NCBI GenBank assembly: GCA_949298925.1
Contig: CASFYE010000052.1
Coordinates: forward strand, 1 to 42,738
Direction: 5' to 3'
Length of the DNA stretch: 42,738 bases
Origin: an uncultured Bacillota bacterium
GTDB taxonomy: Bacteria; Bacillota; Clostridia; Christensenellales; UBA1242
The notes below the pieces were generated by a model. That model did not search any database. It worked only from the letters and a program-made list of their open reading frames with translations, and was not told where the DNA came from. A program made the position numbers and the translations under genes. This document shows positions 4,427 to 41,723 of this stretch, in pieces. Position 1 is the stretch's first letter. Each line of letters opens with the position of its first letter.

Positions 4427-4455
4427 TTGACTTTTTTTTTGTAATTTGTTAAAAT
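4427..4455 (+). promoter_or_regulatory. Promoter placing +1 at the start codon (4463)
   Basis: TTGACT at 4427-4432, 17-nt spacer, TAAAAT at 4450-4455. The ATG begins 7 nt after the last base of the -10 (6 nt between), so transcription should start at or next to the start codon. There is no ribosome binding site. One of several such arrangements in this window. Confidence 0.7.
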
Positions 4456-4462
4456 CTTAGTC

Positions 4463-4882
4463 ATGTCAAGTGTTTCATTTAAAATTCCAAAAGGTTACAT
4501 AAAGTTGCAAGAAAAATATGATCTTTCAAATGATCAAAATTTGCAATTTGTTTTTAATTTACTTTCACCAAACAAAACAATCATCTCTGTCTTTTTAGCA
4601 AAGGAGGAGTTGTTTGTTTATGACAAGATGATCAAAGATTATAAAAGCATTACACCAAACCTTGAATTGAAGAAAAAGTTTAACATAAAGATTGGAGAAA
4701 AAACGGCATCATTATATATAATTGGCAAAGACAGTTTCTTTGCGCAACTGTTTTTTCAGTTTGGCAACAAACTTTACAGTTTTGTTACTACATTAGAAAA
4801 GTTTGAACCTAGTTATGAAAAACTGAAAAAAGAAAATTTAGCTTTAGCAGATTTGGTGGGGTTTGTGAGGTTGTTAAAATGA
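4463..4882 (+). CDS. Conserved-looking hypothetical protein, 139 aa
   Basis: I do not recognise the family. The product is soluble, with alternating hydrophobic strands (VFNLLSPNKTIISVFLAKEELFVYDKM, read as strands and a helix near residues 30-56), no signal peptide and no obvious catalytic motif. Its stop overlaps the queH start by 4 nt (ATGA), so it is translationally coupled to queH and is the first gene of an operon with queH and a signal peptidase. The start has no ribosome binding site; the promoter position suggests a leaderless mRNA. Its role may relate to the operon partners but nothing in the sequence shows it. Confidence 0.8.
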   Translation: MSSVSFKIPKGYIKLQEKYDLSNDQNLQFVFNLLSPNKTIISVFLAKEELFVYDKMIKDYKSITPNLELKKKFNIKIGEKTASLYIIGKDSFFAQLFFQFGNKLYSFVTTLEKFEPSYEKLKKENLALADLVGFVRLLK

Positions 4883-5433
4883 AAAAACTTTTGTTACATT
4901 CTTGTTGTGGGCCATGTTCCACGCATGTTATTGAACAGCTTATAGGCAAATACGATTTGACAATTTTCTACTTTAATCCAAATATTTTTCCATTTGAAGA
5001 ATATCAAAAACGTTTGGCTGAACAAAAAAGATATGCTAAACTCAAGGGAGTCAACGTCATTGAAGGCGATTATGACGAAGAAAGCTTCTTAAACCTTGCA
5101 AAAGGACTTGAAGACGAGAGGGAAGGAGGCTATCGTTGTAAAATTTGCTTTCAAATTCGTTTGGGTGAAACGGCACGAGTGGCGAAAAAGCTTGGATTTG
5201 ACTTATTTGCAACAACTCTTTCGGTGAGCCCTTACAAAAACACTTTATTAATAAACAGTGTGGGAATGGAAGTTTCAAAAAAAGAAAGAATTGAATTTTT
5301 AGCTGAAAACTTTAAAAAGAAAGATGGCTATTTAAAAAGCATTCAACTTTCAAAACAGTTTGGTCTTTACAGACAAAATTACTGTGGTTGCAGATTTTCA
5401 AAAAAGGAGAGAGATGTTCGGCACGAAGTCTAG
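4879..5433 (+). CDS. queH: Epoxyqueuosine reductase QueH
   Basis: QueH (former DUF208) performs the last step of queuosine synthesis, reducing epoxyqueuosine in tRNA, and replaces QueG in many anaerobes. The 184-aa protein shows the family cysteines: HSCCGPCS with C9, C10 and C13, RCKIC with C87 and C90, and YCGC with C169 and C171; it also has FATTLSVSPYKN. These ligate an iron-sulfur cluster and a second iron. The start overlaps the preceding stop (ATGA), and its 3' end overlaps the signal peptidase start by 20 nt, so the three genes are co-translated. Identification is strong. Confidence 0.95.
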   Translation: MKKLLLHSCCGPCSTHVIEQLIGKYDLTIFYFNPNIFPFEEYQKRLAEQKRYAKLKGVNVIEGDYDEESFLNLAKGLEDEREGGYRCKICFQIRLGETARVAKKLGFDLFATTLSVSPYKNTLLINSVGMEVSKKERIEFLAENFKKKDGYLKSIQLSKQFGLYRQNYCGCRFSKKERDVRHEV

Positions 5434-6262
5434 AAAAGATATCAAAGGAGAGGAATTCATAGAGAGAAGCGTAAGAAAGTATCCAAAAGTGCTTTTCTGG
5501 ATTTTTTTGTTTTACTTTTTGATTTTTGCTTCATATATGATTTGGTATTTTTACTTTATTTCAACGCATACACTTTCAAGTGTCGACGGGATAAGCATGC
5601 AAAACACCTTGAATGCTAGTGCTATCGACTCAGATGATTGTTATGATTGGGTTTATGTAAACAACAATGATTTGCCTGAACAGTTTGATATAATAACCAT
5701 CTCAGCGACTCAATTTAACGAAAAAGGCGAGCTAAGCCATATTTCATTAATTAAACGTGCAATAGCTTTGGAAGGAGATCTCGTCACTATTAAAAAAGCC
5801 ACCGGAGAAGGTGAGGACGGTTTCTATCATGTTTATGTTCAAAGAGCGGGTGAATTGGCACCGACTAGGCTTGATGAAAATTACATTAAAAGCTATGAAG
5901 AGTGGTCAACGATGGCATCACACACTGAATGGCATTTAAACAACTTAGAAGCTGTTAAAATAGAATACGAACAAATGTTTTATCAAACTTTCTTAAAAGA
6001 AAAAGATGAAAATGTTGTGAGAATAGGAGACACTTGGTATTATAAAGTTCCTGAGAATTCGGTGTTCTATCTTGGAGACAACAGGGCACATTCTTCTGAT
6101 AGCCGTGTAAGAGGAGTCGCCAGCTTGAACGATGTGGAGGGAGTCGCCGAAATCATTTTAAAAGATGCAGAGCTTGCAACAGAATCGCAATTAATTTGGA
6201 TTAAAACCTCTTCAATATGTCAATATTATTGGAACGAGATAGAAAAGGTTTTTGCTAGATAA
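5414..6262 (+). CDS. lepB: Signal peptidase I
   Basis: Membrane-anchored Ser/Lys endopeptidase that removes signal peptides from secreted proteins. From ATG 5414 (GGAGAGAG just upstream) the protein is 282 aa. It has one membrane helix at about residues 25-52. Ser61 lies in DGISMQNTL (box B) and Lys114 in LIKRAIALEGD (box D), the catalytic dyad. Box E is FYLGDNRAHSSDSR near the C-terminus. An insert of about 60 residues between boxes D and E, rich in Glu and aromatic residues, makes it longer than the Bacillus SipS type. A longer in-frame start at 5360 lies deep inside queH and lacks a ribosome site, so I rejected it. Last gene of the queH operon. Confidence 0.93.
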   Translation: MFGTKSRKDIKGEEFIERSVRKYPKVLFWIFLFYFLIFASYMIWYFYFISTHTLSSVDGISMQNTLNASAIDSDDCYDWVYVNNNDLPEQFDIITISATQFNEKGELSHISLIKRAIALEGDLVTIKKATGEGEDGFYHVYVQRAGELAPTRLDENYIKSYEEWSTMASHTEWHLNNLEAVKIEYEQMFYQTFLKEKDENVVRIGDTWYYKVPENSVFYLGDNRAHSSDSRVRGVASLNDVEGVAEIILKDAELATESQLIWIKTSSICQYYWNEIEKVFAR

Positions 6263-6326
6263 GAGCAAAATCTGTCTGTTTTCTTGTAAAATGCATTAAA
6301 ATCGTTTTGTTAAAATGTCGATTTAT

Positions 6327-6343
6327 GCTAGTATTTTACTAGC
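6327..6343. promoter_or_regulatory. 7-bp palindrome over the HU promoter -10
   Basis: GCTAGTA, TTT, TACTAGC is a perfect inverted repeat. It overlaps a likely -10 (TAGTAT at 6329-6334, 16 nt after TTGTTA at 6307-6312). It could be an operator or a 5' mRNA hairpin. Confidence 0.4.
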
Positions 6344-6378
6344 ACAGAGATGCAAAATTTTAAAAAGGGAGAAAATTT

Positions 6379-6651
6379 ATGAACAAATCTGAATTTATCA
6401 AAGCTTTTGCTGAAAAAGCAAATTTCACTCAAAAGGATGCAGGAATTGCTTTTGAAGCCATGGTTGCAACAGTTGTTGATGCACTTAAAAAGGGTGACAA
6501 AATTGCAATCGCTGGTTTCGGCACTTATGAAATTAAAAAGAAACCTGCACGCACAGGAATCAATCCTATGACAAAACAAAAGGTTAAAATTGCTGCCGCA
6601 AAAGTTCCATCATTCAAATTCGGAAACAGTTTTAAAGCTATCTTCAATTAA
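6379..6651 (+). CDS. hup: HU-family DNA-binding protein
   Basis: A 90-aa nucleoid protein, the normal HU length. It starts MNKSEFIKAFAEKA, has the GFGTYEIKKKPARTG strand and DNA-binding arm with the conserved NP (INPMTKQ), and ends KVPSFKFGNSFK. HU dimers bend and compact DNA and assist replication and repair. AAGGGAGAAAA precedes the start. It is monocistronic, with a palindrome over the promoter and a strong terminator shared with the convergent rubrerythrin gene. Confidence 0.96.
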   Translation: MNKSEFIKAFAEKANFTQKDAGIAFEAMVATVVDALKKGDKIAIAGFGTYEIKKKPARTGINPMTKQKVKIAAAKVPSFKFGNSFKAIFN

Positions 6652-6679
6652 AAAAAAACCGCAATTTGCGGTTTTTTTT
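6651..6679. terminator. Bidirectional terminator between HU and rubrerythrin
   Basis: A8, CCGCAA, TTGCGG, T8: a symmetric intrinsic terminator serving the convergent HU and rubrerythrin genes. Confidence 0.85.
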
Positions 6680-7268: not shown

Positions 7269-7380
7269 AAAAATTCCTCCTTTTAAAATTATTGTCAACA
7301 GTTTCTCGTTTTAAACATTTGCATTTTTCATAAAAAACGTGTTAAACTTTTAACAAGGGGTTATCCCATTAGGAGAAAGT

Positions 7381-8145: not shown

Positions 8146-8200
8146 TGAATTAATCAAACAGTTTGTCCTTTTTTTTCACGACAGTGCATATAGATAACTT

Positions 8201-9640
8201 GTGAAAAAGAAGGACAATTTTTTACCTTTTAGAAACAAATTATTTTATGGTATGGGCGGATTAGGTTACAACTCGCTGTCCCAGACCATAGGCTCTTTTT
8301 TGATGTTTTTTTGCACATCGATCATGGGGCTTTCTGGAACTCTTGTTGGGCTCGCGATAGGCATTGCTTCTTTGTGGGACGGAGTTAGCGACCCACTTGT
8401 TGGCTATATTTCAGACAGGACTAAGCCCGGCTTTTTCGGCAAAAGATTAAAATACATGATTTTTGCAGTTTTTGCAATTGCACTTTGTAATTTGGCACTT
8501 TGGAGCATGCCTAAAACTAGTCAGTTTGGAATGTTTGTGTGGCTTTTGACATTTTTGCTACTTTTAGAAACCGCAAACACATTTTGGTCAACACCGTTTT
8601 CGGCGCTTGCTCTTGACATAGCACCTGATTACAACGAACAAAGCAAAATTCAATCATATAAAACATTTTTTAATGTGATTGGTATGATTGCGCCAAGTTT
8701 TTTAATGTTTTGGTTGATGCCATCGTTGACATTGGGTATTGACGCAGCAGATGCTAGCCAAGGGGGATTCATCACCATTGCACTTTTGAATGGCGGACTT
8801 GTAATATTGTTTGGATTAATAGCGGTTTTTGGTAATTTAAAACGAGTAAGAAATTTTGTAAAGTATGGCCATCCGCCACAAAAAGAAAAGCACGCTTTAA
8901 AAAATCTAATTGTTGGATATATTGACATTTTTAAAAAGAACAGCTTTGCGTGTTTGATTTTGGGATACTCGGTAGCACAGATCGCGTCATCATTTTTGAC
9001 GTCAGTAGGAATGCACCTATTCACATATTGTTACCATTTTTCGACTGCGAAAATCTCTATTTTGTTAATAGCACTGTTTGCGGGCGCAATTTTGTCACAA
9101 CCCGTTTGGGTGGGGCTTGCGAAGAGGATTGATAAAAAAGGTGCATTGATTTCTGCCTTATCTTTACTTTTACTAGGTATTGGGTTGACTTTAATTTCCT
9201 TTTTATTTAGGCAATATATTCCTCTTGAAACACTTTTTATATTTGTTTTGTGTTGCATAATCGTCTGTGGTTTTGGATTGGGAGCAATGTATTCTTTACC
9301 GATTTCAATGTATGCTGATGTGGTAACGTTGGAGCAATATAGCTCAGGTGTTAATAAGTCAGGGGCATACCTTGGATATTATTCCTTTACCTACAATCTT
9401 TCAAATTCAATTTCGATGCTTTTTATTGGGATTTTGTTAGATGCAATAAAGTTTGATCCGTCCGAACCTATTCAAGCGATAAGTGTGCAAAATGGACTTG
9501 GCACAATTGTTTTTTGTGGTTGCGCGATAGCTCTTGCCTTTGCAATTTTGCTGTTTTCGAGATACAAAGTCAAACGCTCGGATGTTTTGAAGGCACAGTT
9601 AAAATTAAATGATGATGAAAATAAAACTATAAAATTGTAA
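8201..9640 (+). CDS. GPH-family sugar:cation symporter (MFS)
   Basis: A 479-aa polytopic inner-membrane transporter, likely 12 helices. The N-terminus, GMGGLGYNSLSQTIGSF, and the loop DGVSDPLVGYISDRT followed by GKR are hallmarks of the glycoside-pentoside-hexuronide (MelB-like) family, which imports sugars or sugar conjugates with Na+ or H+. A second motif near 370, YADVVTLEQYSSG, matches the conserved family segment before helix 10. It starts with GTG and has no ribosome site; TATAGA at 8189-8194 ends 6 nt before the GTG, so the mRNA may be leaderless. No glycosidase is adjacent, so the substrate is unknown. Confidence 0.9.
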   Translation: MKKKDNFLPFRNKLFYGMGGLGYNSLSQTIGSFLMFFCTSIMGLSGTLVGLAIGIASLWDGVSDPLVGYISDRTKPGFFGKRLKYMIFAVFAIALCNLALWSMPKTSQFGMFVWLLTFLLLLETANTFWSTPFSALALDIAPDYNEQSKIQSYKTFFNVIGMIAPSFLMFWLMPSLTLGIDAADASQGGFITIALLNGGLVILFGLIAVFGNLKRVRNFVKYGHPPQKEKHALKNLIVGYIDIFKKNSFACLILGYSVAQIASSFLTSVGMHLFTYCYHFSTAKISILLIALFAGAILSQPVWVGLAKRIDKKGALISALSLLLLGIGLTLISFLFRQYIPLETLFIFVLCCIIVCGFGLGAMYSLPISMYADVVTLEQYSSGVNKSGAYLGYYSFTYNLSNSISMLFIGILLDAIKFDPSEPIQAISVQNGLGTIVFCGCAIALAFAILLFSRYKVKRSDVLKAQLKLNDDENKTIKL

Positions 9641-9676
9641 ATTTTAAATTCAGCACTATATTAAATATTTTTTATT

Positions 9677-9762: not shown

Positions 9763-9822
9763 AGAGTTGGTCACAAAAGAATTATTTTTTTTCAGTTAGC
9801 CAAACTAAATTTAGGGGGCAAA

Positions 9823-10338: not shown

Positions 10339-10347
10339 TGATATAAT
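10339..10347 (+). promoter_or_regulatory. Extended -10 promoter abutting the GtrA-ASCH start
   Basis: TG-A-TATAAT (10339-10347) is an extended -10. The ATG begins after 6 further nt and there is no ribosome site between, again implying a leaderless transcript. The -35 is only T-rich. Confidence 0.6.
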
Positions 10348-10353
10348 AAATCC

Positions 10354-11184
10354 ATGAAAAAAGATATTGTAGCGCAGTCGCAAGAAAAAGAAAGCGAGAA
10401 AAAGAAAAAAATAGATAAGGCAGAAATTTTTCGCATTTTAAAATTTGTTGGCTTTTCAATTTCTGCTGGAGTTATTCAAATTGCTTCATTTGAAATTTTG
10501 TATCATGCTATAAATTGGCTTTGGTGGCCAAGTTATTTGATTTCAATAATTTTGTCGGTCATTTGGAATTTTACTTTTAATCGCAAGTTTACTTTTCAAT
10601 CTGCCAACAACGTTTATATAGCAATGGCATGGACGCTTTTGTATTACGTTGCATTCATTCCTATATCAGTTTTTGGTGGGAATGAACTTGAAAATATAGG
10701 TTGGCATGGAACTTTGGTGACAGCACTTATGATGCTTTTAAATTTCGTAACTGAATTTGCTTGGCAAAGGTATTTTGTTTTTAGAAAATCCATTAATTCA
10801 AAACCGTTGCCAAAAACAGTGCAAATGGCATTGCATTCTGAACCGTTTGAAAAAATAGCATCTGGATTAAAAAAAGTTGAAATGCGGCTTTTTGATAACA
10901 AAAGAAAAGAGTTAAATGTTGGCGACAAAATAGTTTTTAAAGAAAGGACAAATGAAAACAACAAAATAAAAGTCAAAATAACTAAATTAAACAAATTTTC
11001 TTCATTTGATGAACTTTATCGTTTTTACAAAGATAAGACCGTGCTAGGTTATGCACCAAATGAAACGGCGGATCCTAAAGATATGGAAAAATATTACACG
11101 AAAGAAAAACAAAAAATGGGGGTCCTTGCAATTGAATTTGAATTAATCAGCAAAAACAATGAGAAAAATGTAAAATTAAATTAA
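10354..11184 (+). CDS. GtrA-like membrane domain fused to an ASCH-like domain
   Basis: 276 aa. Residues about 27-145 form a four-helix GtrA-type domain with the family hallmarks WNFTFNRKFTF at 71-81 and EFAWQRYFVFRK near 134-145; GtrA proteins move or present polyprenyl-linked sugars. Residues about 158-270 look like an ASCH domain: SEPFEKIASGLKKVEMRL, then NVGDKIVFKER and a central strand-helix region. ASCH domains are beta-barrels that bind RNA or nucleotides. A basic coiled N-terminus of 25 residues precedes the first helix. The fusion would place the ASCH domain on one membrane face. The combination is unusual; neither half shows a break. Confidence 0.75.
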   Translation: MKKDIVAQSQEKESEKKKKIDKAEIFRILKFVGFSISAGVIQIASFEILYHAINWLWWPSYLISIILSVIWNFTFNRKFTFQSANNVYIAMAWTLLYYVAFIPISVFGGNELENIGWHGTLVTALMMLLNFVTEFAWQRYFVFRKSINSKPLPKTVQMALHSEPFEKIASGLKKVEMRLFDNKRKELNVGDKIVFKERTNENNKIKVKITKLNKFSSFDELYRFYKDKTVLGYAPNETADPKDMEKYYTKEKQKMGVLAIEFELISKNNEKNVKLN

Positions 11185-11399
11185 CAAAAAAGTTTTTAAA
11201 TTTGAAAAATCATTACTAAGGAATAAAAACAAAATAAATTGTCATAAGATTTTGGAATATTGGTTTTCTGTAATATTGCTGGCAATTTATTTTTTTATAC
11301 AAAAAAGCATTTGTCAATTGAAAATAAATCGCAGTGTGAATACAATAATTCTTTTAATGTAACTGTGCCAATTTAATTTTAAGAAAATAATTTTGAGTA

Positions 11400-11428
11400 T
11401 TGACAACAGTAAAAAGGTGTGATATATT
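11400..11428 (+). promoter_or_regulatory. Promoter of ankyrin gene 1
   Basis: TTGACA at 11400-11405, 17-nt spacer, TATATT at 11423-11428: near-consensus sigma-A promoter. The surrounding 40 nt are almost identical to those at 12998-13026. Confidence 0.85.
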
Positions 11429-11452
11429 GTGTATAACAAGGGAGAAAAAAAC

Positions 11453-12877
11453 GTGGAAAACATTATAGATGAAATTAAAGAGTTAATTGAAATAAATGAT
11501 GTAGAAGCAGAGGAATACTTAATTAATTATTTTTCAGAGTTGGACGAAAAAAGTAGCAAAGATGAAGAATTGTTGAAAATGAAATCTTCTGATGGCGAAA
11601 CATTGATAGACCTGGCTATTTTTAAAAAAATGAGGAAATTCTTGTGTTTACTAGTAGAAAAATATCCAAATCTTGCGCAAAACAGTTTACACAGGGCGGC
11701 AGAGGAAGGCTTTTCAGACGTTTTAATCAAAGCGTTAGAAGTTGATCCAAGTCTTGCAAAAGTGCAAAATAAAAAAGGTGAAACCTTTTTGCATGAGGCG
11801 GCATGGAAAGGTCTTTCAGACGTTTTAATCAAAGCGTTAGAAGTTGATCCAAGTCTTGCAAAAATACAAGATTATACTGGCGATACGTTTTTGCATGCTG
11901 CAGTTAGGCGAGGTCTTTATTACGTTTTGATCAAAGCGTTAGAAGTTGATCCAAGTCTTGCAAAAGTGCAAAACAAAAAAGGTGAAACCTTTTTGAATAA
12001 GGCGGCGTGGGAAGGTCTTTCAGACGTTTTAATCAAAGCGTTAGAAGTTGATCCAAGTCTTGCAAAATTACAAGACAAATATGGCTACACTTTTTTGCAT
12101 GCTGCGGCAGAGAAAGGTCTTTCAGACGTTTTAATCAAAGCGTTTGAAGTTGATCCAAGTCTTGCAAGAATTCAAGACCACCGTGGGAACACCTTTTTGC
12201 ATTATGCGGCAGAGAAAGGGCTTTCAGGCGTCTTAATAAAGGCGTTAGAAGTTGATCTAAGTCTTGCAAAAGTGCAAAATGAAGAAGGCGAAACTTTTTT
12301 GCATGAGGCGGCAAAGAAGGGGTTTTTAGGCGTTTTAATAAAAGTGTTAGAAGTTGATCCGAGCCTTGCTAAAGTGCAAAACGAATATGGCGATACGTTT
12401 TTGCACGATGCGGCATGGAAAGGTCTTTCAGCTGTTTTAATTAAAGCATTAGAAGTTGATCTGAGTCTTGCAAGAGTGCAAAGTAAAAAAGGCTATACGT
12501 TTTTGCATGATGCGGCAGACAAAGGTCTTTCAGAAGTTCTAATCAAAGCGTTAGAAGTTGATCCGAACCTTGTTAAAGCGCAAGATTACAAAGGCTATAA
12601 TTTTCTGCATAAGGCGGCGGTGAATGGTCTTTCAGATGTTTTAATCAAAGCGTTAGAGATAAATCCGGAATTTTTAACAATTAAAACGAGAGAAGGACAA
12701 ACTGTTCTAGATCTCGCGAGGGAGACGGCATCTAAAAGAGGTTGTAAAGCAGACTTTTCGGAATTTTTCAAACTTGCTGCACCAATGAACCAAAAAGAAG
12801 CTAAAGAAAATATTCAAAATGCAAAAATCTTTTTAAATGAAAGAAAAGCTCAAAAGCTGGGCGAAGATAGAAGATAA
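11453..12877 (+). CDS. Ankyrin-type repeat protein, ten 34-aa units
   Basis: 474 aa from GTG 11453 (AGGGAG upstream). An upstream GTG at 11429 overlaps the promoter edge and is less likely. An acidic 87-residue N-cap is followed by ten units of 34 aa (11714-12733) with consensus S-D-V-L-I-K-A-L-E-V-D-P-S-L-A-K-V-Q-N, then G-x-T-F-L-H-x-A-A-x-K-G-L; the last unit is degenerate (FLTIKTREGQTVLDLAR). This matches the ankyrin helix-turn-helix pattern. There is no signal peptide or enzyme domain, so it is a protein-binding scaffold, cytoplasmic unless exported by another route. The units are very similar at DNA level, pointing to recent expansion. A shorter paralogue follows. Confidence 0.85.
   Translation: MENIIDEIKELIEINDVEAEEYLINYFSELDEKSSKDEELLKMKSSDGETLIDLAIFKKMRKFLCLLVEKYPNLAQNSLHRAAEEGFSDVLIKALEVDPSLAKVQNKKGETFLHEAAWKGLSDVLIKALEVDPSLAKIQDYTGDTFLHAAVRRGLYYVLIKALEVDPSLAKVQNKKGETFLNKAAWEGLSDVLIKALEVDPSLAKLQDKYGYTFLHAAAEKGLSDVLIKAFEVDPSLARIQDHRGNTFLHYAAEKGLSGVLIKALEVDLSLAKVQNEEGETFLHEAAKKGFLGVLIKVLEVDPSLAKVQNEYGDTFLHDAAWKGLSAVLIKALEVDLSLARVQSKKGYTFLHDAADKGLSEVLIKALEVDPNLVKAQDYKGYNFLHKAAVNGLSDVLIKALEINPEFLTIKTREGQTVLDLARETASKRGCKADFSEFFKLAAPMNQKEAKENIQNAKIFLNERKAQKLGEDRR
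11714..12733 (+). repeat. Ten tandem 102-bp repeats inside ankyrin gene 1
   Basis: Each 102-bp unit encodes one 34-aa repeat. Blocks such as TTTTAATCAAAGCGTTAGAAG recur almost unchanged in most units. The nucleotide identity exceeds what protein constraint needs, so units likely duplicate and convert by recombination. Confidence 0.85.
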
Positions 12878-12935: not shown

Positions 12936-12997
12936 AATAAAATTAATTATTAAATAAAAAAATCGTGAGATTGTTGTAAGATTAATAATTTTGAGTA

Positions 12998-13026
12998 TTG
13001 ACAACAGTAAAAAGATGTGATATATT
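12998..13026 (+). promoter_or_regulatory. Promoter of ankyrin gene 2
   Basis: TTGACA, 17 nt, TATATT. It differs from the promoter of ankyrin gene 1 at one spacer position in the region compared, so the two genes carry the same promoter. Confidence 0.85.
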
Positions 13027-13050
13027 GTGACTAACAAAGGAGAAAAAAAC

Positions 13051-13671
13051 ATGAGAAACATTAAAGAAAACATTGTAGATGAAATTAAGATGTCGATTAA
13101 AGAAAACAGTGCAGAAGCGGAGAAATACTTAATCAACTATTTTTCTGAGTTGAATAAAGAAGGTTTCAATGATGATGAATTGTTAAGAATGAAAACTTCT
13201 GATGGCGCGACATTGATAGATTTGGCAATTTCAGAAGGATTACAGAACTTTTTGTGCTTTATAGTGAAATATTATACAAATTTTGCAAAAGTACAAAATA
13301 AAGAAGGAAATACTTTTTTGCATAAGGCGGCACGGAAAGGCTTTTCAGGCGTTCTAATAACAGCCTTAGATGTAGATCAAGATTTTGCGAAAGTACAAAA
13401 TAAAAAAGGCGAAACCTTTTTGCATGAGGCGACAAAAGGCGATGCCGTAGAGGCCCTAATCAAAGCGTTAGAAGTTGATCCTGAACTTTTAACAATTAAA
13501 ACTAAAAAAGGTAAAACTGTCTTGGATATGGCAAGAGAAAGGAAATCTAGCTTTAATTGTGATCTTCGTTTCTATAATTTTTTTGAACTCTTTAATAAAG
13601 AAGAAAACAAAAAAATAATAACTCATCTAAATGAGAGAATGCTTCTAAGATTGGGCGACGATAGAAGCTAA
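13051..13671 (+). CDS. Short ankyrin-type paralogue, about three repeats
   Basis: 206 aa from ATG 13051 (AAAGGAG upstream). N-cap and C-tail match ankyrin gene 1: both N-caps contain YLINYFSEL and DELL-like segments and both C-termini read LNER, then LG, then DDR or EDR. Only about three 34-aa units lie between, with the shared block KGETFLHEA. It therefore has the same design with fewer units. No signal peptide. It has its own copy of the promoter and terminator, so the full transcription unit was duplicated. Role unknown, likely protein binding. Confidence 0.8.
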   Translation: MRNIKENIVDEIKMSIKENSAEAEKYLINYFSELNKEGFNDDELLRMKTSDGATLIDLAISEGLQNFLCFIVKYYTNFAKVQNKEGNTFLHKAARKGFSGVLITALDVDQDFAKVQNKKGETFLHEATKGDAVEALIKALEVDPELLTIKTKKGKTVLDMARERKSSFNCDLRFYNFFELFNKEENKKIITHLNERMLLRLGDDRS

Positions 13672-31067: not shown

Positions 31068-32819
31068 ATGTGTGGCATAGTTGGTATTATAGGCAAAAAC
31101 ATTAAAACGACAGAAATTTTTGATAAACTTGAAAAATTACAATACAGGGGTTATGATTCTGCTGGAATTTGTATTGAAAAAGATAATAAGTTTTATGTAC
31201 ATAAAGAGACGGGGATTATAGACAATCTTAGGAAAGAGTGCCCTAACTTATTTGGAGATGTAATTATTGGACACACTAGGTGGGCCACTCATGGAAAAGT
31301 CAACAAAACGAATGCGCACCCTATACTTAGTGCGAATGGTTGTTGGGCAGTTGTTCATAATGGGATAATTGAAAATTTTGCAGAACTAAAAGATAAATTT
31401 GCTAGCAAAGATGAACTTATAACAGAAACTGACACGGAGATTGTGGCTAACATTTTAGAAAAAGGTAAAGGTAAAGAAGATTTGCAAAATTTTATTTTTA
31501 CATGCGAACAATTGAAAGGTAGTTTTGCTTTGTGTGTAATGAAGAAGGGTAGTAAATCTTTGTTTATAGCCAAAAAGAAAAAACCGCTTTATGTCCAAAG
31601 TATTGGAAATAAAACAACGATTGCAAGCGATCCTATATGCTTTGAAAAGGGCGAGTATTTTAAAATGGAAGATGGCGAGTATGCTGTGGCGAATTTTGAT
31701 AATGTAAGATTTTTTGATTGTAAGGGGAGACTTGTTTCAAAACAAGCTTTAAAATGTTTTGAATTGGTTTCTCAGATCTCTAAAAATGGTTTTGAGCATT
31801 TTATGTTAAAGGAAATAACTGAAACGCCTCAAAAAATAAGAGGACTTTGCAAGCACTATCAGACGATAGACTGGTCATTCTTAAAAAGATGGTGGATTAA
31901 TAAAGTCAAATTGATTGGTTGCGGTTCGGCATACCATTCTTGCTTGGTGGGTGCTTATTATTTTAGAAAGCATTTGAATATAGATGCGGAAGCATTACCT
32001 GCGAGCGAATTTCTTTCTGATAATGCAATATTGGATTCATCAACACTTTGCGTGTTTGTTAGTCAAAGTGGGGAGACCGCCGACACAATATCTGCATTAA
32101 AAAAGGCTTTGAAAAAGACGAAAAAGATTATATCAATTACAAATGTTGATTATTCAACCTTGGCATCACTTTCACCTATAGTTTTGCCTATTTGTGCTGG
32201 CGTTGAAATAGCTGTAGCATCAACAAAAGCTTACACATGTCAAATCGTTTCGTTGTATATGCTTGTTATGGCTCTTAAATCTAAGATGAGAAATGCTGTA
32301 AGAAATGTTTTGAATTTATCCAAAAGACTCGATAGATTTTCATTAGATGTTTCAAAATTGGCGGAGGCTATAAAAGATCAAAAAAATATTTTCTATATTG
32401 GAAGAAATTTAGACTATATTACCGCATTAGAAGGCGCATTAAAACTTAAAGAAATAAGTTACATAAATTGTAATGCATATCCAGCAGGTGAGTTAAAACA
32501 TGGGGTGCTGGCTTTAATTCAAAAAGACGTTCCTGTCATAGTTTTGGTTTCGAACAAAAGATTGGTTCAAAAGACGTTAAACAGTGCGTTCGAAGCAAAA
32601 TCACGTGGTGCAAAACTGTTCCTTTTTCATTCACAACCACTTGAAAAGATTGATCTTAATAAGTTTGACGGCGGTTTTATGCTTCCAAATGTCAACAACG
32701 ATTTAACTTGTATATTTGAAACAGTGGCATTACAACTTTTGGCATATAATGTCAGTGTGATGAGAGGGCTAGATCCAGACAAACCTAGAAATTTGGCGAA
32801 GTCAGTGACAGTGGAGTGA
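31068..32819 (+). CDS. glmS: Glutamine--fructose-6-phosphate aminotransferase (isomerizing)
   Basis: Makes glucosamine-6-phosphate from fructose-6-phosphate and glutamine, the entry to cell-wall amino sugars. The N-terminal glutaminase domain begins with the nucleophile Cys2 (MCGIVG) and has LQYRGYDSAG, GHTRWATHG and VVHNGIIEN. Two SIS domains follow, with CGSAYHS, FVSQSGETADT, ASTKAYTCQ and a C-terminal KSVTVE. At 583 aa it is slightly short. AAGGAG precedes the ATG. The 126-bp gap upstream has no glmS ribozyme signature. Confidence 0.96.
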   Translation: MCGIVGIIGKNIKTTEIFDKLEKLQYRGYDSAGICIEKDNKFYVHKETGIIDNLRKECPNLFGDVIIGHTRWATHGKVNKTNAHPILSANGCWAVVHNGIIENFAELKDKFASKDELITETDTEIVANILEKGKGKEDLQNFIFTCEQLKGSFALCVMKKGSKSLFIAKKKKPLYVQSIGNKTTIASDPICFEKGEYFKMEDGEYAVANFDNVRFFDCKGRLVSKQALKCFELVSQISKNGFEHFMLKEITETPQKIRGLCKHYQTIDWSFLKRWWINKVKLIGCGSAYHSCLVGAYYFRKHLNIDAEALPASEFLSDNAILDSSTLCVFVSQSGETADTISALKKALKKTKKIISITNVDYSTLASLSPIVLPICAGVEIAVASTKAYTCQIVSLYMLVMALKSKMRNAVRNVLNLSKRLDRFSLDVSKLAEAIKDQKNIFYIGRNLDYITALEGALKLKEISYINCNAYPAGELKHGVLALIQKDVPVIVLVSNKRLVQKTLNSAFEAKSRGAKLFLFHSQPLEKIDLNKFDGGFMLPNVNNDLTCIFETVALQLLAYNVSVMRGLDPDKPRNLAKSVTVE

Positions 32820-32834
32820 TGTTCAGCATAAATA
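32805..32834 (+). promoter_or_regulatory. Promoter abutting the phosphotransferase start
   Basis: GTGACA at 32805-32810 (inside the glmS 3' end), 18 nt, TAAATA at 32829-32834, then 6 nt to the ATG at 32841. No ribosome site. Confidence 0.5.
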
Positions 32835-32840: not shown

Positions 32841-33656
32841 ATGGTCAAACATTTTACGATTGATGATGATTTTAATTTAATAATTAAACAATTTTTTCCA
32901 CGTGCAAAAAATATTTGTCAAATTTCTACAGGGTGGACAAATTTTGTTTTCAAAGCCAGAATTAAAAAGAATTGGTGGATTTTTCGATTTCCAAGAAACA
33001 GCTTTTTTAGTAAAGTTCTGCTTAAAGAAGTCAAGGTGTGTTACACTTTGCAAAAAGAAAAGTTGAATGTTAAATTACCAAAATTAAAACTTTTGTATTA
33101 TAAAAACAAGCCTTTTTCTATTCATAAAATGATTAAGGGAGTGCCACTTACTGAGTGCAAATTAAATGATAGACAAATGACAAAAATTGCAAAAGAAATA
33201 TGTTTATTTTTAAAGAAAATTAATCGTGTTAAATTGTCAATAAGATTGCCTCTCGCAAGTACATTTTTAAAAGATTTATCTTTTGTTTCAGGGGGAGATT
33301 ACAATCTTCAAATGCATAATAGATTAAAAAAAATGGAAAAACAAAAAAAGGTTTTTTCACATGGGGACTTAAACCCTGGCAACATTTTAATAAAAGGGAA
33401 AAAAATTGTGGGTATTTTGGATTTTGCATTTGCTTGTAGGTCAACACCCATCAATGATTTGGCACGATTAATTGAGAGGTTGCCTGATTGCCAAAGAAAA
33501 TTGTTTTTACATGAATATGAAAGACATTTCAATCAAAAAATTAATTTAGAGGAACTAAGTGATCTGATTGCAATGTGGGAATATGTAGAAGACAGATATA
33601 TTGAATATATCAAGAAAAAACATCCTGATATACAACTTCCAAAATCTGTTTTTTAG
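32841..33656 (+). CDS. APH/choline kinase-fold phosphotransferase
   Basis: 271 aa with a protein-kinase-like fold. The catalytic loop is FSHGDLNPGNIL (HGDxxxxN) near residues 172-183 and the metal-binding motif is GILDFAFA near 191-198. The N-lobe has WWIFRFPRN and a Glu in LKEVKVC. Members phosphorylate aminoglycosides, choline, homoserine or similar alcohols; the substrate here is unclear. It follows glmS by 21 nt but seems to have its own promoter. Its 3' end overlaps the convergent kinase gene by 47 nt. Confidence 0.85.
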   Translation: MVKHFTIDDDFNLIIKQFFPRAKNICQISTGWTNFVFKARIKKNWWIFRFPRNSFFSKVLLKEVKVCYTLQKEKLNVKLPKLKLLYYKNKPFSIHKMIKGVPLTECKLNDRQMTKIAKEICLFLKKINRVKLSIRLPLASTFLKDLSFVSGGDYNLQMHNRLKKMEKQKKVFSHGDLNPGNILIKGKKIVGILDFAFACRSTPINDLARLIERLPDCQRKLFLHEYERHFNQKINLEELSDLIAMWEYVEDRYIEYIKKKHPDIQLPKSVF

Positions 33657-36409: not shown

Positions 36410-36413
36410 ACAT

Positions 36414-36797
36414 TTAAATCCTTTTATTTAGATAATTAATTAATATGTCTATTGAGCGTTCAGTGTCAATATCAACAGGGCCAACATAGTCGTCAATCTT
36501 GTCGTAAAAAGATTGTAGCTCATTTTCGCCCTTTTCGGTAAGCCTCAATATTCTACATCGACGGTCAATTTCTGCATGTTCAATTTTTAGAAGACCCTCT
36601 TTTTCTAACTCAGCCGTCAGTAAAGCAAAATTTGATTTTTTTATTCCTAATTTCTCAATAATCATGCTAACGGAGAGGTTGGAATAAATTTTTGCAAAAG
36701 CCAAAACTTTAAATTTAAGCAATCCGCCATCAGTCTTTTTTTTGAGAAGGTTTTCACATAACGCCTCTATTTCTAAAATTTTTTGTGCTGTTTTCAT
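36414..36797 (-). CDS. MarR-family transcriptional regulator
   Basis: 127 aa winged-helix protein. Helices with LSVSMIIEKLGIKKSNFALLTAELEKEGLL (residues about 41-70, helix-turn-helix) lead to the wing DRRCRILRLTEKG at about 78-90. This is the MarR pattern. It precedes cysS by 4 nt, so the two form an operon. The signal is unknown; Cys23 and Cys81 might sense thiols. Divergent from recD2. Confidence 0.85.
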   Translation of the reverse strand: MKTAQKILEIEALCENLLKKKTDGGLLKFKVLAFAKIYSNLSVSMIIEKLGIKKSNFALLTAELEKEGLLKIEHAEIDRRCRILRLTEKGENELQSFYDKIDDYVGPVDIDTERSIDILINYLNKRI

Positions 36798-36846
36798 AAC
36801 TAATAATTATTATAAGCATTTTTTTAAATATCGCAAGTGTTTTTAC

Positions 36847-36875
36847 TTGTTTTTATCCTTTTATAGTGTTAAAAT
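36847..36875 (+). promoter_or_regulatory. Promoter abutting recD2
   Basis: TTGTTT at 36847-36852, 17 nt, TAAAAT at 36870-36875, then 6 nt to ATG 36882. No ribosome site, so the mRNA is predicted leaderless. Confidence 0.65.
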
Positions 36876-36881
36876 TTGTTT

Positions 36882-39113
36882 ATGCAAATCGAAGGGACTG
36901 TTGAAGAAATTGTTTTTAGAAACGACGAAAACGGTTATACCGTTGCGGTGCTTTCATATAATAAAACCCCTGTAACAATTGTAGGAAAAATGATATCTGC
37001 AAATGTGGGCGAAAATTTGATTTTAGAAGGGGAGTTTGTTCACAATAAAAAATTTGGATATCAATTTGCATTTTCAAATTACGAGATAACCTTGCCTCAA
37101 ACACTTGCAGGAATAGAAAAGTATTTGGCTTCTGGTTTGATAAAGGGTGTAGGTCAAGTAACAGCTAAAAACATTGTGCAAAAGTTTAAAACGGATACTT
37201 TTGCCATAATAGAAATGGCGCCAGAAAAACTTGCCCAAGTAAGAGGGATAAGTAAAAATAAGGCATACGAAATTTCTGCAAAATTTTCTGAACTTAGGTC
37301 AATACAAAATGCTATTATGTTTTTGCAAGGATATGACATATCTGTCAACATGGCTCTTAAAATTTTTGATATTTATGGCGCCAAAACAGTTGAAATTGTT
37401 CGCAATAATCCATATCGTTTAGTTGAAGATGTTGATGGAATTGGTTTTTTGACCGCAGATAAGATTGCAAAAAACATCGGCATAGCATTGAATAGTGCCT
37501 TTCGGGTGAGAGCAGGCATTGTTTATTGTTTAACTGTTGCAACGGAAAAAAATGGAAATACATATCTGCCAAAAGGATTACTGTTTTCAAACACAATGGA
37601 GTTGTTGGGATTTCAAGAGGAAAAAATTGAGATCTTTGATGAAGTCTTAGATGAACTTGTTGCGGATAAGTCTTGTATGAATTTTTGGTATGACAATTTA
37701 GAAGTTGTCATGCTTACAAAATATTATCGCTATGAATATTCTGTTGCGCAAAAGTTATGTCTGCTTTCGAGTTCGACAAACATATCTCAAACTGATGTTA
37801 CACTTGAAATAAAATCATTTGAAGAGAGGAACAATGTTGTTTTTCATAGCGATCAAAAACGTGCGATCGAATGTGCAGTAAACAACGGTGTGTCGATTAT
37901 AACAGGAGGACCTGGAACAGGAAAAACTACGATTGTAAAATGCATCATTGACATTTTGGCAAATAGAAGAGAAAGTGTGTTGCTCCTTGCCCCGACTGGC
38001 CGTGCAGCAAAGAGACTTTCAGATAGTACAGGCCAGGAAGCGAAAACCATTCATAGAGCATTGGAGGTGAATGGAGATATTGACCGTATTGGAAGATTTG
38101 TTCACAATGAAAACAATCCTTTTGATATAAAGAATTTCATCGTTGATGAAGTCAGCATGGTTGATATTATGCTCATGAGTTCGCTTTTAAAAGCTTTGCC
38201 AAGAGATGCGAGATTGATTGTAGTGGGGGACAAAGATCAACTTCCAAGTGTCGGAGCTGGCAATGTACTTGGAGATATGTTGGCGAGCAATATTTTTCCT
38301 GTGACGATGCTGACCAAGATATATCGTCAAACAGATGACAGCCTTATTATTTCAAATGCCCAGCTTATAAATAATGGCATTATGCCTGTTATCGACAATA
38401 ATTCGAGTGATTTCTTTTTTGAGCAAAAGACTGATTTAAATGAAATTCATTCATCAATAGTGGAAATGGTGACGAAAAGGATACCTAGTTTTTTAAAAAT
38501 AGATCCATCGCAAATTCAAGTTTTAGCTCCGCTTAAAGCAGGCGTTTGCGGGATAGACAACCTTAATAGGACATTGCAAGACATTTTGAATCCAGCCTCA
38601 CCGAATAAAAGTGAATTGATTTTGGGGACAACGATTTTTCGAGAAGGCGATAAAGTTATGCAAACGTCAAATGATTATAATTTAAAATGGAATCGCCGTA
38701 ATGGATTTATTTATGAAACAGGGGAAGGAGTTTTTAATGGTGATATAGGGCAAATTTATTCTATAGATTTTCAAACAGGTGAAACTGTCGTTGAATTTGA
38801 AGATGGCAGGGTTAGCACATATGCCAGAACGGACATCGGTGAATTGTCTTTGGCCTATGCTATTACAATTCACAAATCTCAGGGATCTGAATTTGATGTA
38901 GTCGTCATTCCTATCATTGCAGGTACCAGTATGATATTGACTAGAAATCTCATATACACTGCGGTAACGCGTGCGAAGAAGATGGTTGTTCTTGTTGGAG
39001 AAAAGAAAAATTTGCGCAGAATGGTGGCAAACGCTTATACAGTAAAAAGATTTACACTATTAAAAAAATTATTAATTGAACAAAATGAAAAAATAAAAGA
39101 GCTGTTTAATTAA
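36882..39113 (+). CDS. recD2: ATP-dependent RecD2-type DNA helicase
   Basis: 743 aa, superfamily 1B helicase moving 5' to 3'. An N-terminal OB-like region (VEEIVFRNDENGYTVAVL) and helix-hairpin-helix repeats (ITAKN..., GIGFLTADKIA) precede the motor. Walker A is GGPGTGKT at 342-349, motif II is VDEVSMVD near 422, the GDKDQLPSVG motif follows, and motif VI-like TAVTRAKK lies near 690. RecD2 without RecBC acts in repair and replication-fork upkeep. ATG 36882 is chosen over a TTG two codons earlier. Divergent from marR. Confidence 0.95.
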   Translation: MQIEGTVEEIVFRNDENGYTVAVLSYNKTPVTIVGKMISANVGENLILEGEFVHNKKFGYQFAFSNYEITLPQTLAGIEKYLASGLIKGVGQVTAKNIVQKFKTDTFAIIEMAPEKLAQVRGISKNKAYEISAKFSELRSIQNAIMFLQGYDISVNMALKIFDIYGAKTVEIVRNNPYRLVEDVDGIGFLTADKIAKNIGIALNSAFRVRAGIVYCLTVATEKNGNTYLPKGLLFSNTMELLGFQEEKIEIFDEVLDELVADKSCMNFWYDNLEVVMLTKYYRYEYSVAQKLCLLSSSTNISQTDVTLEIKSFEERNNVVFHSDQKRAIECAVNNGVSIITGGPGTGKTTIVKCIIDILANRRESVLLLAPTGRAAKRLSDSTGQEAKTIHRALEVNGDIDRIGRFVHNENNPFDIKNFIVDEVSMVDIMLMSSLLKALPRDARLIVVGDKDQLPSVGAGNVLGDMLASNIFPVTMLTKIYRQTDDSLIISNAQLINNGIMPVIDNNSSDFFFEQKTDLNEIHSSIVEMVTKRIPSFLKIDPSQIQVLAPLKAGVCGIDNLNRTLQDILNPASPNKSELILGTTIFREGDKVMQTSNDYNLKWNRRNGFIYETGEGVFNGDIGQIYSIDFQTGETVVEFEDGRVSTYARTDIGELSLAYAITIHKSQGSEFDVVVIPIIAGTSMILTRNLIYTAVTRAKKMVVLVGEKKNLRRMVANAYTVKRFTLLKKLLIEQNEKIKELFN

Positions 39114-39115
39114 AT

Positions 39116-39144
39116 TAAAAAAAACAGTTTAAACCGTTTTTTTA
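39116..39144. terminator. Terminator between recD2 and mscL
   Basis: A8, CAGTTTAAACCG and T7, nearly self-complementary; serves the convergent recD2 and mscL genes. Confidence 0.65.
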
Positions 39145-39711: not shown

Positions 39712-39795
39712 TTGTTTTCTCCTTTTTGAAAAGTTTAACAAATTAATAAAAAAAAAGCAAAATATTTGCTCTTATTTTTTTTATAATTTAAGGTT

Positions 39796-40251
39796 TTATG
39801 CATTTGTTAGGCTTTTGATATGGACTGGGGCAAAAAGTTTGTGTTTGTTTTTTAAAAGTTGTTCATTGCATTCTTTAAATATTTTGTTGATGGTTATTAT
39901 ATGGCGCTCGGCTAGTAATGAAATAAAATGTGTTAAGCTGGGCTTTTCATAAGGAGACAAATAATCAAAACCAATCAATTTGTTAATGTTTTTAAGTGTA
40001 TTTTTAAAATATGCTGATTCCAGGCTATGTCGCATTGCCCTTTCGATTGATTCAATTCTTGCAGAAAACATTTTTGCAAGTTTTGGCAGAATGCAAACCT
40101 TGATGGATTTTAGTAATTTTGGTTCTTTAACAGCAATAAAAATGCTTTCACATAGGTATTGATAGCCTTTTTGAGAAGGTGAAATGCCTATAAATGACAA
40201 GTCTGAAAAAATGTTTTTTTTGCATTTTATTTCTAAAAGGTTTTCTTTCAT
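39796..40251 (-). CDS. Stand-alone Spo0A C-terminal (DNA-binding) domain protein
   Basis: 151 aa. Residues 19-115 match the Spo0A effector domain: IGISPSQKGYQYLCESI corresponds to IGVPAHIKGYQYLREAI, ESIERAMRHSLESAY to SRVERAIRHAIEVAW (recognition helix), and KPSLTHFISLLAE to KPTNSEFIAMVAD. The phosphoreceiver domain that precedes it in Spo0A is absent; only about 18 residues come before. TTAGGAGTCATC gives a good ribosome site, so this is an intact gene rather than a fragment. It could bind 0A-box-like sites without phosphorylation control. No sporulation genes are nearby. Followed by mscL on the same strand after 84 nt. Confidence 0.82.
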   Translation of the reverse strand: MKENLLEIKCKKNIFSDLSFIGISPSQKGYQYLCESIFIAVKEPKLLKSIKVCILPKLAKMFSARIESIERAMRHSLESAYFKNTLKNINKLIGFDYLSPYEKPSLTHFISLLAERHIITINKIFKECNEQLLKNKHKLFAPVHIKSLTNA

Positions 40252-40363
40252 GATGACTCCTAATTAAGTTTTTAGGTAAAACATTAATAGTTTAATTAAA
40301 CTCACAATTTTATCAAAGCAGTTGTATATACACTTTTTGTCGATTTTTTTTATTTTATAATGC

Positions 40364-40392
40364 TTGCTAAAAAATAATATTAATGGTAATAT
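40364..40392 (+). promoter_or_regulatory. Promoter abutting engB
   Basis: TTGCTA at 40364-40369, 17 nt, TAATAT at 40387-40392, then 6 nt to ATG 40399; no ribosome site. Confidence 0.65.
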
Positions 40393-40398
40393 AGCATT

Positions 40399-40980
40399 AT
40401 GATTATTAAATCGGTAAAATATTTAACAAGCGTAGTGGAGAAAAGCAAACTTTTAGATGATGGAGTTTGTGAATTTGCTTTTGTTGGCAGAAGTAATGTT
40501 GGTAAGTCGAGTTTAATAAACAATTTGAGTGGTGTCAAAGCACTTGCTAAAACATCTTCAACACCAGGTGCAACAAAAATGATCAATTATTTTTCCATAA
40601 ATGAAAATCAAGCGCGTTTTGTTGACCTTCCAGGATATGGGTATCATAAAGCAGGTAAAAAAAATCAAGAACTTTGGTCCAACCTCATAGAAGATTATTT
40701 ATTGTATTCGAAAAATTTGAAATTAGTATTGTTTCTCATTGACATACGTCATAAGCCAAATGAGCTAGACAAAATGATGCTTAATTTTTTGTTGCAGACG
40801 GGGAGAAACTTTATAATTGTGGCTACAAAATCAGACAAATTATCAAAAGGTGCACAGCATATAGCAATAAAAAACATTGCGTACGAATTAAATTTAAATT
40901 CGCAAATAATTTTTCCTTACAGCAGTTTGATATCACAAGGCAAAAAGGAAATTTTAGATTATTTGGAAAGTTTGTTTTAA
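40399..40980 (+). CDS. engB: Ribosome-biogenesis GTPase EngB/YsxC (YihA)
   Basis: 193 aa. G1 is GRSNVGKSS at 30-38, G2 includes TSSTPGATK, G3 is DLPGYGYHK near 75-83, G4 is TKSDK near 144, and G5 is near PYSSL. The G2-G3 sequence is specific to EngB, an essential GTPase in 50S subunit assembly. Length is normal. The start follows the -10 by 6 nt without a ribosome site. The next gene, a VTT-domain protein, begins 29 nt later with its own -10. Confidence 0.95.
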   Translation: MIIKSVKYLTSVVEKSKLLDDGVCEFAFVGRSNVGKSSLINNLSGVKALAKTSSTPGATKMINYFSINENQARFVDLPGYGYHKAGKKNQELWSNLIEDYLLYSKNLKLVLFLIDIRHKPNELDKMMLNFLLQTGRNFIIVATKSDKLSKGAQHIAIKNIAYELNLNSQIIFPYSSLISQGKKEILDYLESLF

Positions 40981-41009
40981 ATTAAGTCAAATGTTTCATA
41001 ATAATTTTT

Positions 41010-41723
41010 ATGAACCAAAATTTAACAAAATCAAAAAAAATTGTTCATAGCTTGATTGTAATTTTGCTAATTGCATCGTTTTTGACGTTGGTTTATTTTA
41101 TTCTAGTTTGGACAAAACTTTGGGAAAAATTAAATTCAGTTGACAAGTTGAGAAACTTTATTTTAGATTTAGGCTTTTGGGGTAGGATTACTTTTGTTTT
41201 TTTGCAATTTTTGCAAGTTACATTTGTTCCCATTCCATCGACAATTCTAACTATTGCGGGGTCAATAATTTATGGACCATTACAAGGCGGGCTTTTAAGT
41301 TTGTCGGGCATTTTGCTTGGGAGTGTGCTTGCATTTTTTTTGGGAAGAACTTTTGGAAGAAAATTGGTGGCTTTTATGGTTGGTGAAGAAAGTTGTCAAA
41401 AATGGGTAAAATTTTTGTCAAAGGCCAGATACACTTTCTTTTTTATGATGCTTCTGCCTATGTTTCCCGATGACGTTTTATGCCTTGTGGCTGGAATAAC
41501 AAATATGAGTTGGGCATTTTTTGTTTTAACCAATTTGATTACGAGGCCTATCGGTATATTTATAACTAGTTATCTCGGTAGCGGTGAAATTATTCCATAT
41601 TATGGCTGGGGGCTTATTGTGTGGGGAATAATTTTGGTCGCAGTCGGTGTTCTTATGTGGCTTGTTACAAAGTATGATAAAAGGATAGAAAATTTTTTTG
41701 TCAAAATTTTTAAAAAAAAGTAA
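41010..41723 (+). CDS. TVP38/TMEM64 (VTT/DedA-like) membrane protein
   Basis: 237 aa with about five or six helices. The VTT core is VPIPSTILTIAGSIIYGP, then GILLGSVLAFFLGRTFGRKL (helix and re-entrant loop with Gly-Arg motif), and MLLPMFPDDVLCLVAGITN. This family includes lipid scramblase-like proteins of the DedA superfamily. CATAAT at 40997-41002 lies 7 nt before the ATG and there is no ribosome site. C-terminus basic (NFFVKIFKKK). Confidence 0.9.
   Translation: MNQNLTKSKKIVHSLIVILLIASFLTLVYFILVWTKLWEKLNSVDKLRNFILDLGFWGRITFVFLQFLQVTFVPIPSTILTIAGSIIYGPLQGGLLSLSGILLGSVLAFFLGRTFGRKLVAFMVGEESCQKWVKFLSKARYTFFFMMLLPMFPDDVLCLVAGITNMSWAFFVLTNLITRPIGIFITSYLGSGEIIPYYGWGLIVWGIILVAVGVLMWLVTKYDKRIENFFVKIFKKK

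Follow-up and report, generated by a model that had tools for sequence, protein, structure and literature searches.

Promoters ending at the start codon in a Christensenellales-like genus: a predicted class of leaderless genes

A minority of genes in a small-genome, Christensenellales-like genus of Clostridia very probably carry a promoter of the sigma-A type that ends at the start codon, and would give rise to leaderless mRNAs alongside a normal Shine-Dalgarno (SD) system. We analyzed the contig CASFYE010000052.1 (42,738 nucleotides (nt); hereafter the window), which is an entire contig, C52, of the source genome G000, an assembly of 834,993 bases in 53 contigs that is 97.5% complete. An earlier note on this DNA had proposed that seven starts of the window, including those of recD2 and engB, belong to a recurring leaderless class that coexists with SD-led genes. 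The proposal of such a class is supported by a peak of -10 hexamers at 6 nt from the start codon, by -35 elements at a spacer of 17, by a pyrimidine at position -1, and by a spacing held across the genus. Promoter geometry, excess over chance and conservation were computed from the DNA; the transcription start and the mode of ribosome entry we infer from them.

Results

Promoter hexamers peak 6 nt before the start codon

Genes were called by codon-pair usage, with starts chosen independently of any upstream signal. The input from G000 was 20 genome stretches, and the resulting sample of 311 usable genes represents 43% of the genome. The strict -10 hexamer was defined as TATAAT with no more than one change within the middle three bases, distance was counted from the last base of the hexamer to the start codon, and the mean count per other distance served as background. 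A first, broader definition of the SD sequence counted chance matches to GGTG/GTGA and so hid likely cases, such as recD2 of the related genome G021; it was replaced by a core-SD definition, and results are given for both.

Under the core-SD definition, 17 of the 124 no-SD genes of G000 had a strict hexamer at exactly 6 nt, compared with a background of 1.73. The same peak was found under the first SD definition (14/103 at 6 nt, background 1.57) and when no SD filter was applied (17/311 genes, background 4.05). Similar values were obtained for the no-SD genes of two other members of the genus, G021 (14/106, background 1.30) and G004 (18/121, background 2.30). When the three genomes were pooled (857 called genes), the hexamer lay at 6 nt in 49 of 351 no-SD genes, where the background was 5.32; 100 dinucleotide shuffles of the pooled set gave a mean of 4.39 and a maximum of 9. 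The extended form TGnTAnnnT occurred 30 times at 6 nt in the pooled genomes, compared with 0.89. The genome-wide peak that the earlier note had named as a check on its proposal is thus present beyond the level of shuffled sequence, on the 43% of G000 that was sampled.

The predicted leaderless class was defined as genes that lack an SD core and have a -10-like hexamer at 6 or 7 nt. In G000 this class contains 26 of the 311 genes, chance matches included. Strict matches numbered 17 at 6 nt and 7 at 7 nt against 1.73 for each distance, or approximately 20 above background. The SD class contains 187 of the 311 genes.

Promoter marks of the class

The first SD definition gives 43 no-SD genes in which the hexamer lies at 6 nt, and these were scored for additional promoter marks. 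The triplet TTG was positioned at a spacer of 17 in 20 of these genes, at 16 in 4 and at 18 in 5, with counts of 0-4 at any other spacer from 10 to 25. A TGn extension was present in 21 of the 43. The base at -1 was C or T in 39/43 class genes, compared with 152/255 other no-SD genes and 223/410 SD genes. Start codons were ATG in 41 cases and GTG in 2, a count to be read in light of the gene caller's own preference for ATG. The upstream neighbor was divergent in 20 of 41 class genes, and a same-strand neighbor lay less than 20 nt upstream in 1/41, compared with 151/394 SD genes. These marks are those of a sigma-A promoter with the start codon as its predicted +1; an RpoD-type sigma factor is encoded in G000.

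Conservation at recD2 and engB

To follow single genes across the genus, G000 and 36 further same-genus genomes were searched (37 in total, with rounded sizes of 0.7-1.3 Mb; further genus genomes exist), and 30 genus loci, the window's own included, were read for recD2 and 30 for engB. Homologue starts were located by tblastn; some loci were cut by a contig end (for example L158, L184, L233 and L303), and L231 gave no match. RecD2 proteins of metagenome-assembled genomes named 'uncultured Clostridia bacterium' are 74-91% identical to that of the window, and those at 51-52% identity include proteins of 'uncultured Christensenella sp.' and Candidatus Onthoplasma (NCBI: Bacillota, Clostridia, Christensenellales). 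These relationships make the host a member of the Bacillota, which agrees with the assumption of the earlier note.

At recD2, TANNNT was found at exactly 6 nt in 30/30 genus loci and an SD core in 0/30. The -35 triplet TTG was at a spacer of 17 in 28 loci and of 18 in the other 2, and the base at -1 was C or T in all 30. The discriminators, by which we mean the 6 nt between the -10 and the start codon, comprised 19 different sequences among the 30 loci, and the region separating the -35 from the -10 was also little conserved; the -35, the -10 and the -1 base are conserved. An additional genus member (L272) likewise has TAAAAT 6 nt before recD2. At engB the hexamer lay at 6 nt in 29/30 loci, each of which has a pyrimidine at -1; in a count of 28 loci, 27 had TGn and 26 different discriminators were seen. 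The two genes jointly have the 6-nt spacing in 59/60 loci and a pyrimidine at -1 in 59/59. The preference is specific to -1, because at -2 a pyrimidine was found in only 29/58 loci.

Two side observations concern the DNA upstream of recD2. T-rich positions at -42 to -38 and -31 to -28 (window 36840-36854, genus loci L009-L038) are near-invariant in the 30 loci, so that conservation flanking the -35 exceeds what a -35 needs. The gene divergent from recD2 (36414-36797, minus strand) belongs to the leaderless class in G021 (TAAAAT at 6 nt) and not in G000, and back-to-back leaderless promoters may therefore exist in some species.

Outside the genus, recD2 was read at 54 loci. An SD core was present in 14/27 loci from other families of the order and in 20/27 from other orders of the class. 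TANNNT at 6 nt was found once (L280, with A at -1), and at 7 nt five times, at L284 (TATAAT), L315 (which has an SD core), L319, L321 and L323, with the starts of L319 and L321 being uncertain. These loci suggest that a leaderless recD2 is a trait of this genus that has few parallels elsewhere, if any.

Orthologues, outgroups and the Shine-Dalgarno system

Among 102 reciprocal best hits between G000 and G021, 7 genes were predicted leaderless in both genomes (expected 1.1), and among 106 between G000 and G004 there were 4 such genes (expected 0.38). Two AT-rich genomes from other families of the order (G037 and G043, 36% GC) had the strict hexamer at 6 nt in 9/114 no-SD genes against 1.41. In six other families of the order (41-57% GC) the count was 2/117 against 0.86, which is not significant, with 3 occurrences of TGnTAnnnT against 0.27. 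The predicted gene class is wider than the genus, unlike leaderless recD2. Other orders of the class were represented by 43 genes in 60 kb, too few for a comparison, with the hexamer at 6 nt in 1/10 (G167) and 0/8 (G152) no-SD genes. No peak was found when 200 kb of E. coli K-12 was put through the same pipeline (1/71 no-SD genes at 6 nt, background 0.32). From 150 kb of D. radiodurans MP1, the pipeline returned TANNNT 4 times at 6 nt and 4 times at 7 nt among 61 genes against 0.51, and the strict hexamer twice at 6 nt.

A 16S gene was found in 4 of the 37 genus genomes, none of them the G000 assembly; in two cases (G035 and G036) the gene extends to its 3' end, where the sequence is GGATCACCTCCTTT, which contains an intact anti-SD sequence. 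This end, together with initiation factor (IF) 3 encoded in G000, supports the coexistence of SD initiation. A search for rpsA (TIGR00717) gave no long S1-like match in G000; in 12/12 relatives the match was of approximately 330 residues, all below cut-off. The lack of a long match in G000 may reflect an assembly gap.

Sites of the window

The features of the window are collected in Table 1. Of the seven sites we grade the predicted promoters of recD2, engB and the open reading frame (ORF) at 4463 as strong and that at 10354 as good. Those at 8201 and 41010 we rate as plausible, and for the one at 32841 we find no support. A TGn extension is found at all four of the better sites, and the first three also have a -35 at a spacer of 17. 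The hexamers listed in the earlier note are all present, and the spacing is 6 nt at 8201, 10354, 32841, 36882 and 40399 and 7 nt at 41010, as had been described; that at 4463 is 7 nt rather than the claimed 6. The statement that none of the seven starts has a ribosome binding site held up, the scan giving an SD match at 0/7. Three of the four -35 elements named there (TTGACT, TTGTTT and TTGCTA) are found at a spacer of 17, and the fourth, GTGACA, lies inside glmS.

Table 1. Positions of candidate promoter elements and associated genes in the window.
Feature	Position	Strand	Evidence
-35 of 4463 ORF, TTGACT, spacer 17	4427..4432	+	sequence scan
Extended -10 of 4463 ORF, TGT TAAAAT, ends 7 nt before ATG	4447..4455	+	sequence scan
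4463 ORF, 139 aa, predicted leaderless or with 1-nt leader	4463..4882	+	no Pfam match (E 1e-3)
Weak -10 candidate TATAGA (2 mismatches, 6 nt), no convincing -35	8189..8194	+	sequence scan
MFS/GPH-type sugar transporter, plausibly leaderless GTG start	8201..9640	+	domain search, relatives
Extended -10, TGA TATAAT, ends 6 nt before ATG; -35 weak	10339..10347	+	sequence scan
GtrA-like + ASCH domain protein, predicted leaderless	10354..11184	+	domain search
TAAATA before 32841, 6 nt, not accepted as promoter	32829..32834	+	3/6 matches to TATAAT
APH-family phosphotransferase, probably second in a glmS operon	32841..33656	+	21 nt after glmS
-35 of recD2, TTGTTT, spacer 17	36847..36852	+	sequence scan
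-10 of recD2, TAAAAT, TGT extension, ends 6 nt before ATG	36870..36875	+	sequence scan
recD2, predicted leaderless, ATG as predicted +1	36882..39113	+	TIGR01448 RecD2 above cut-off
-35 of engB, TTGCTA, spacer 17	40364..40369	+	sequence scan
Extended -10 of engB, TGG TAATAT, ends 6 nt before ATG	40384..40392	+	sequence scan
engB (YihA/YsxC ribosome-biogenesis GTPase), predicted leaderless	40399..40980	+	TIGR03598 above cut-off
Weak -10 candidate CATAAT, 7 nt before ATG, -35 unconvincing	40997..41002	+	sequence scan
VTT-domain membrane protein, plausibly leaderless	41010..41723	+	domain search

In all seven close-clade homologues of the 4463 ORF, the window's included, an in-frame start follows the hexamer at exactly 7 nt. 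All seven also have TTGACT or TTGACA at a spacer of 17, a TGn extension and a pyrimidine at -1. No promoter of this type was found in the 15 other rows of the family, in which some candidate start is preceded by an SD match four or more bases long; by eye, the start so preceded is mostly an upstream ATG. This contrast between close and distant homologues indicates that orthologues can switch both initiation mode and start codon, and that certain genes maintain a distance specific to them.

For the GTG start at 8201, relatives in four genomes (G005, G016, G023 and G026) have TAAGAT or TAAAAT at 6 nt, G021 has no such hexamer, G004 is ambiguous, and the -1 base is mixed. The gene caller, which uses no upstream signal, shifted this start to 8252. 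Homologues of the VTT-domain gene at 41010 have TANNNT at 6 nt in 13/30 cases, at 7 nt in 2/30, and at neither distance in 15/30. A second VTT-domain paralogue, 39-46% identical over most of its length, is present in 9 of the 37 genomes (G004, G007, G008, G012, G014, G015, G018, G022 and G025).

The site at 32841 was rejected as a leaderless gene. Its candidate -10 agrees with TATAAT at three of six positions, and the proposed -35 (32805-32810) falls within the final codons of glmS (TIGR01135), AAG TCA GTG ACA GTG GAG TGA, the stop codon of which ends at 32819. Conservation of GTGACA in G021 and G033 is explained by the coding of the glmS protein. With a gap of 21 nt after glmS, 32841 probably follows it as the second gene in one operon, where translation would occur by coupling or by another SD-independent route; on the other side, some of its homologues have TATAAA at about 5-6 nt (by eye).

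Proposed transcription start and initiation mode

The arrangement suggests the following mechanism. A housekeeping promoter of the sigma-A type, consisting of a -35, a spacer, a -10 and a discriminator of 6-7 nt, would run up to the start codon, and RNA polymerase would start on the A of the ATG, after a pyrimidine. A gap of 6 nt would produce an mRNA without a leader and one of 7 nt perhaps a leader of a single nucleotide. Such an mRNA would be translated independently of SD pairing, presumably by 70S ribosomes or through IF2-assisted initiation, with the normal SD system serving most other genes. The reading of 5'-AUG messages without SD pairing is known for leaderless mRNAs elsewhere.

We considered three alternatives to this mechanism. 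The promoters could be real and transcription could start 1-5 nt upstream, or at mixed positions, giving a very short leader that is SD-independent without being strictly leaderless. A 7-nt gap is kept in close homologues of 4463 and, by eye, of 10354, and start choice by polymerase generally varies by 1-2 nt. The exact 6-nt spacing at all but one of the recD2 and engB loci, with the pyrimidine at -1 throughout, fits a start on the A instead, and the 7-nt family of 4463 also has C or T at -1 in all seven members. We consider a short leader unlikely, while keeping it in mind as a serious alternative. Alternatively, these could be secondary promoters of genes expressed mainly from upstream starts with ordinary leaders, an arrangement for which C. 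phytofermentans offers a precedent: the 4% of its genes that are potentially leaderless generally have another, upstream start and keep a ribosome binding site. This seems improbable for the class described here, the members of which lack an SD core by definition, as do all 30 recD2 loci, and for recD2, where conservation is concentrated in the -35, the -10 and -1 and is slight in the interval between the two elements. Finally, AT-rich signals that may bind protein S1 lie upstream of non-SD genes in other phyla, and the hexamer might be such a translation enhancer or plain AT-richness; shuffles that reach at most 9 against 49, and a hexamer accompanied by a -35 at spacer 17 and by TGn, largely refute this and leave it with hardly any probability.

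Against a leaderless class with sigma-A promoters at the start codon several points have to be set. Approximately 5 of the 49 pooled matches are expected by chance, the three pooled genomes are related, so that their P values are not independent, and the core-SD definition was picked after the first had been seen to miscount, although the first gives the same peak. That SD genes have no hexamer at 6-8 nt was rejected as proof, because an SD would take up those positions and the absence is partly forced by this competition. Agreement between G021 and G004 is weak (3 shared predicted leaderless genes where 0.89 are expected, P 0.04). Of the 10 predicted leaderless genes of G000 with an orthologue in G004, 5 are SD-led there; most genes therefore do not keep their mode. 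The exceptional engB locus, L136, has a GTG start preceded by an SD core. For 10354 the spacing differs between the window (6 nt) and close homologues (7 nt in L190-L193, judged by eye). The count for close homologues of 4463 falls to 5/7 if only the nearest ATG is used, L223 and L224 needing another start, and four distant homologues have a chance TANNNT 7 nt before an internal ATG, with no -35. The D. radiodurans control is small and also has TANNNT 3 times at 9 nt.

Functions of the predicted leaderless genes

The class genes of G000 include recD2, ruvC, uvrA, recF, a rarA-like ATPase, polA, ruvX and a pcrA-like helicase, as well as engB, der, mnmE, lepA and an rsmE-family gene. Repair and recombination genes make up 8/26 of the class, compared with 3/60 randomly drawn other genes (P 0.002), or 6/60 if replication genes are counted in (8/26 in the class; P 0.025). 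The idea of a bias arose after the list had been viewed, and the functional grouping is our own. The E-value threshold was 1e-25 for the 60 random genes and 1e-10 or 1e-20 for the class genes, apart from the 4463 ORF, which was scanned against Pfam only at 1e-3; each of the eight repair genes also passes the 1e-25 threshold. Ribosomal proteins account for 0/26 class genes and 10/60 random genes; they are mostly encoded within operons, where leaderless starts are not expected. All 23 class genes of G004 were also scanned, with no random set for comparison, and include ruvC, recD2, uvrC, ribonuclease HII, a gene with a DnaQ/PolC-like exonuclease domain and a Xer-like recombinase. We regard a DNA-repair bias as tentative, a lead. 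It is doubtful that the class is functional rather than a product of drift, such that the eight repair and recombination genes of G000 and the GTPases engB, der, mnmE and lepA would be preferentially leaderless, and so translated when SD-dependent initiation is down, with ribosomal proteins staying SD-led.

Relation to known leaderless genes

The earlier note had described leaderless mRNA as not usual in Bacillota, which is half right. TA-led genes were predicted in 56/209 Firmicutes genomes (Zheng et al. 2011, PMC3160421), where they average 4.2% (2.4-16.6), and start maps of Clostridia (PMC9045289, PMC5171806, PMC6873888, PMC7438776, PMC4533764) give about 2-3%, 4%, about 2%, 15 genes (C. 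difficile) and 212 transcripts of genes with detected proteins (C. acetobutylicum). Leaderless genes are a small part of the Clostridia transcriptomes in these maps so far. The kind is already known in Firmicutes and Clostridia; the present analysis adds the lineage, the constancy of spacing for individual genes throughout a genus, the change of mode between orthologues, and the tentative repair bias. Among the titles listed by a literature search, with subscription papers mostly outside its reach, none concerned leaderless genes in Christensenellales or Christensenella.

The TA-led genes resemble those described here in that a TANNNT -10 adjoins the start codon, no SD is present, and TG precedes the box in several low-GC genomes (PMC3160421). 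That study, whose main text mentions neither 'Clostridia' nor 'Clostridium', has its cases mainly in Lactobacillales and Mycoplasma, whereas ours come from a Christensenellales-like genus with small genomes in which spacing is held per gene. The '-10 region adjacent to ORFs' of Deinococcus-Thermus (PMC12340547) shares the position of the -10 next to the ORF, leaderless mRNA, and the coexistence of genes led by ribosome binding sites. That arrangement is reporter-tested and concerns about 30% of ORFs; here it is predicted from sequence for 26/311 genes of an AT-rich genome, with clear -35 elements. Where C. phytofermentans generally keeps a ribosome binding site and an upstream start, the class genes have no SD core, and some of them keep their spacing from one species to the next. 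Mesoplasma florum (PMC7745072), which has a small Bacillota-related genome, has some starts exactly on start codons and a distance from -10 to start of mostly 6-7 bases, with the difference that only a few such genes are reported in the text consulted.

A promoter-ATG distance that is fixed in some housekeeping genes, together with switching in other orthologues, provides paired natural experiments on a change of initiation mode. The class may also matter for annotation, in that a gene finder with no model of leaderless genes can misplace such starts, as in the shift at 8201.

Additional observations

Two neighboring ORFs of the window have near-identical upstream regions (11384-11453 and 12982-13051), in which TTGACA and TATATT immediately precede the first GTG. 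Translation probably starts at GTG 11453 and ATG 13051, which follow AAGGGAG and AAAGGAG, the longer ORFs presumably being mis-started. Sporulation and germination genes are present despite the 0.83-Mb genome, with spoIVA (L044:97-1575) above and spoIIIAE (L040:2184-3392) and ypeB (L039:15185-16570) below the NCBIfam cut-offs.

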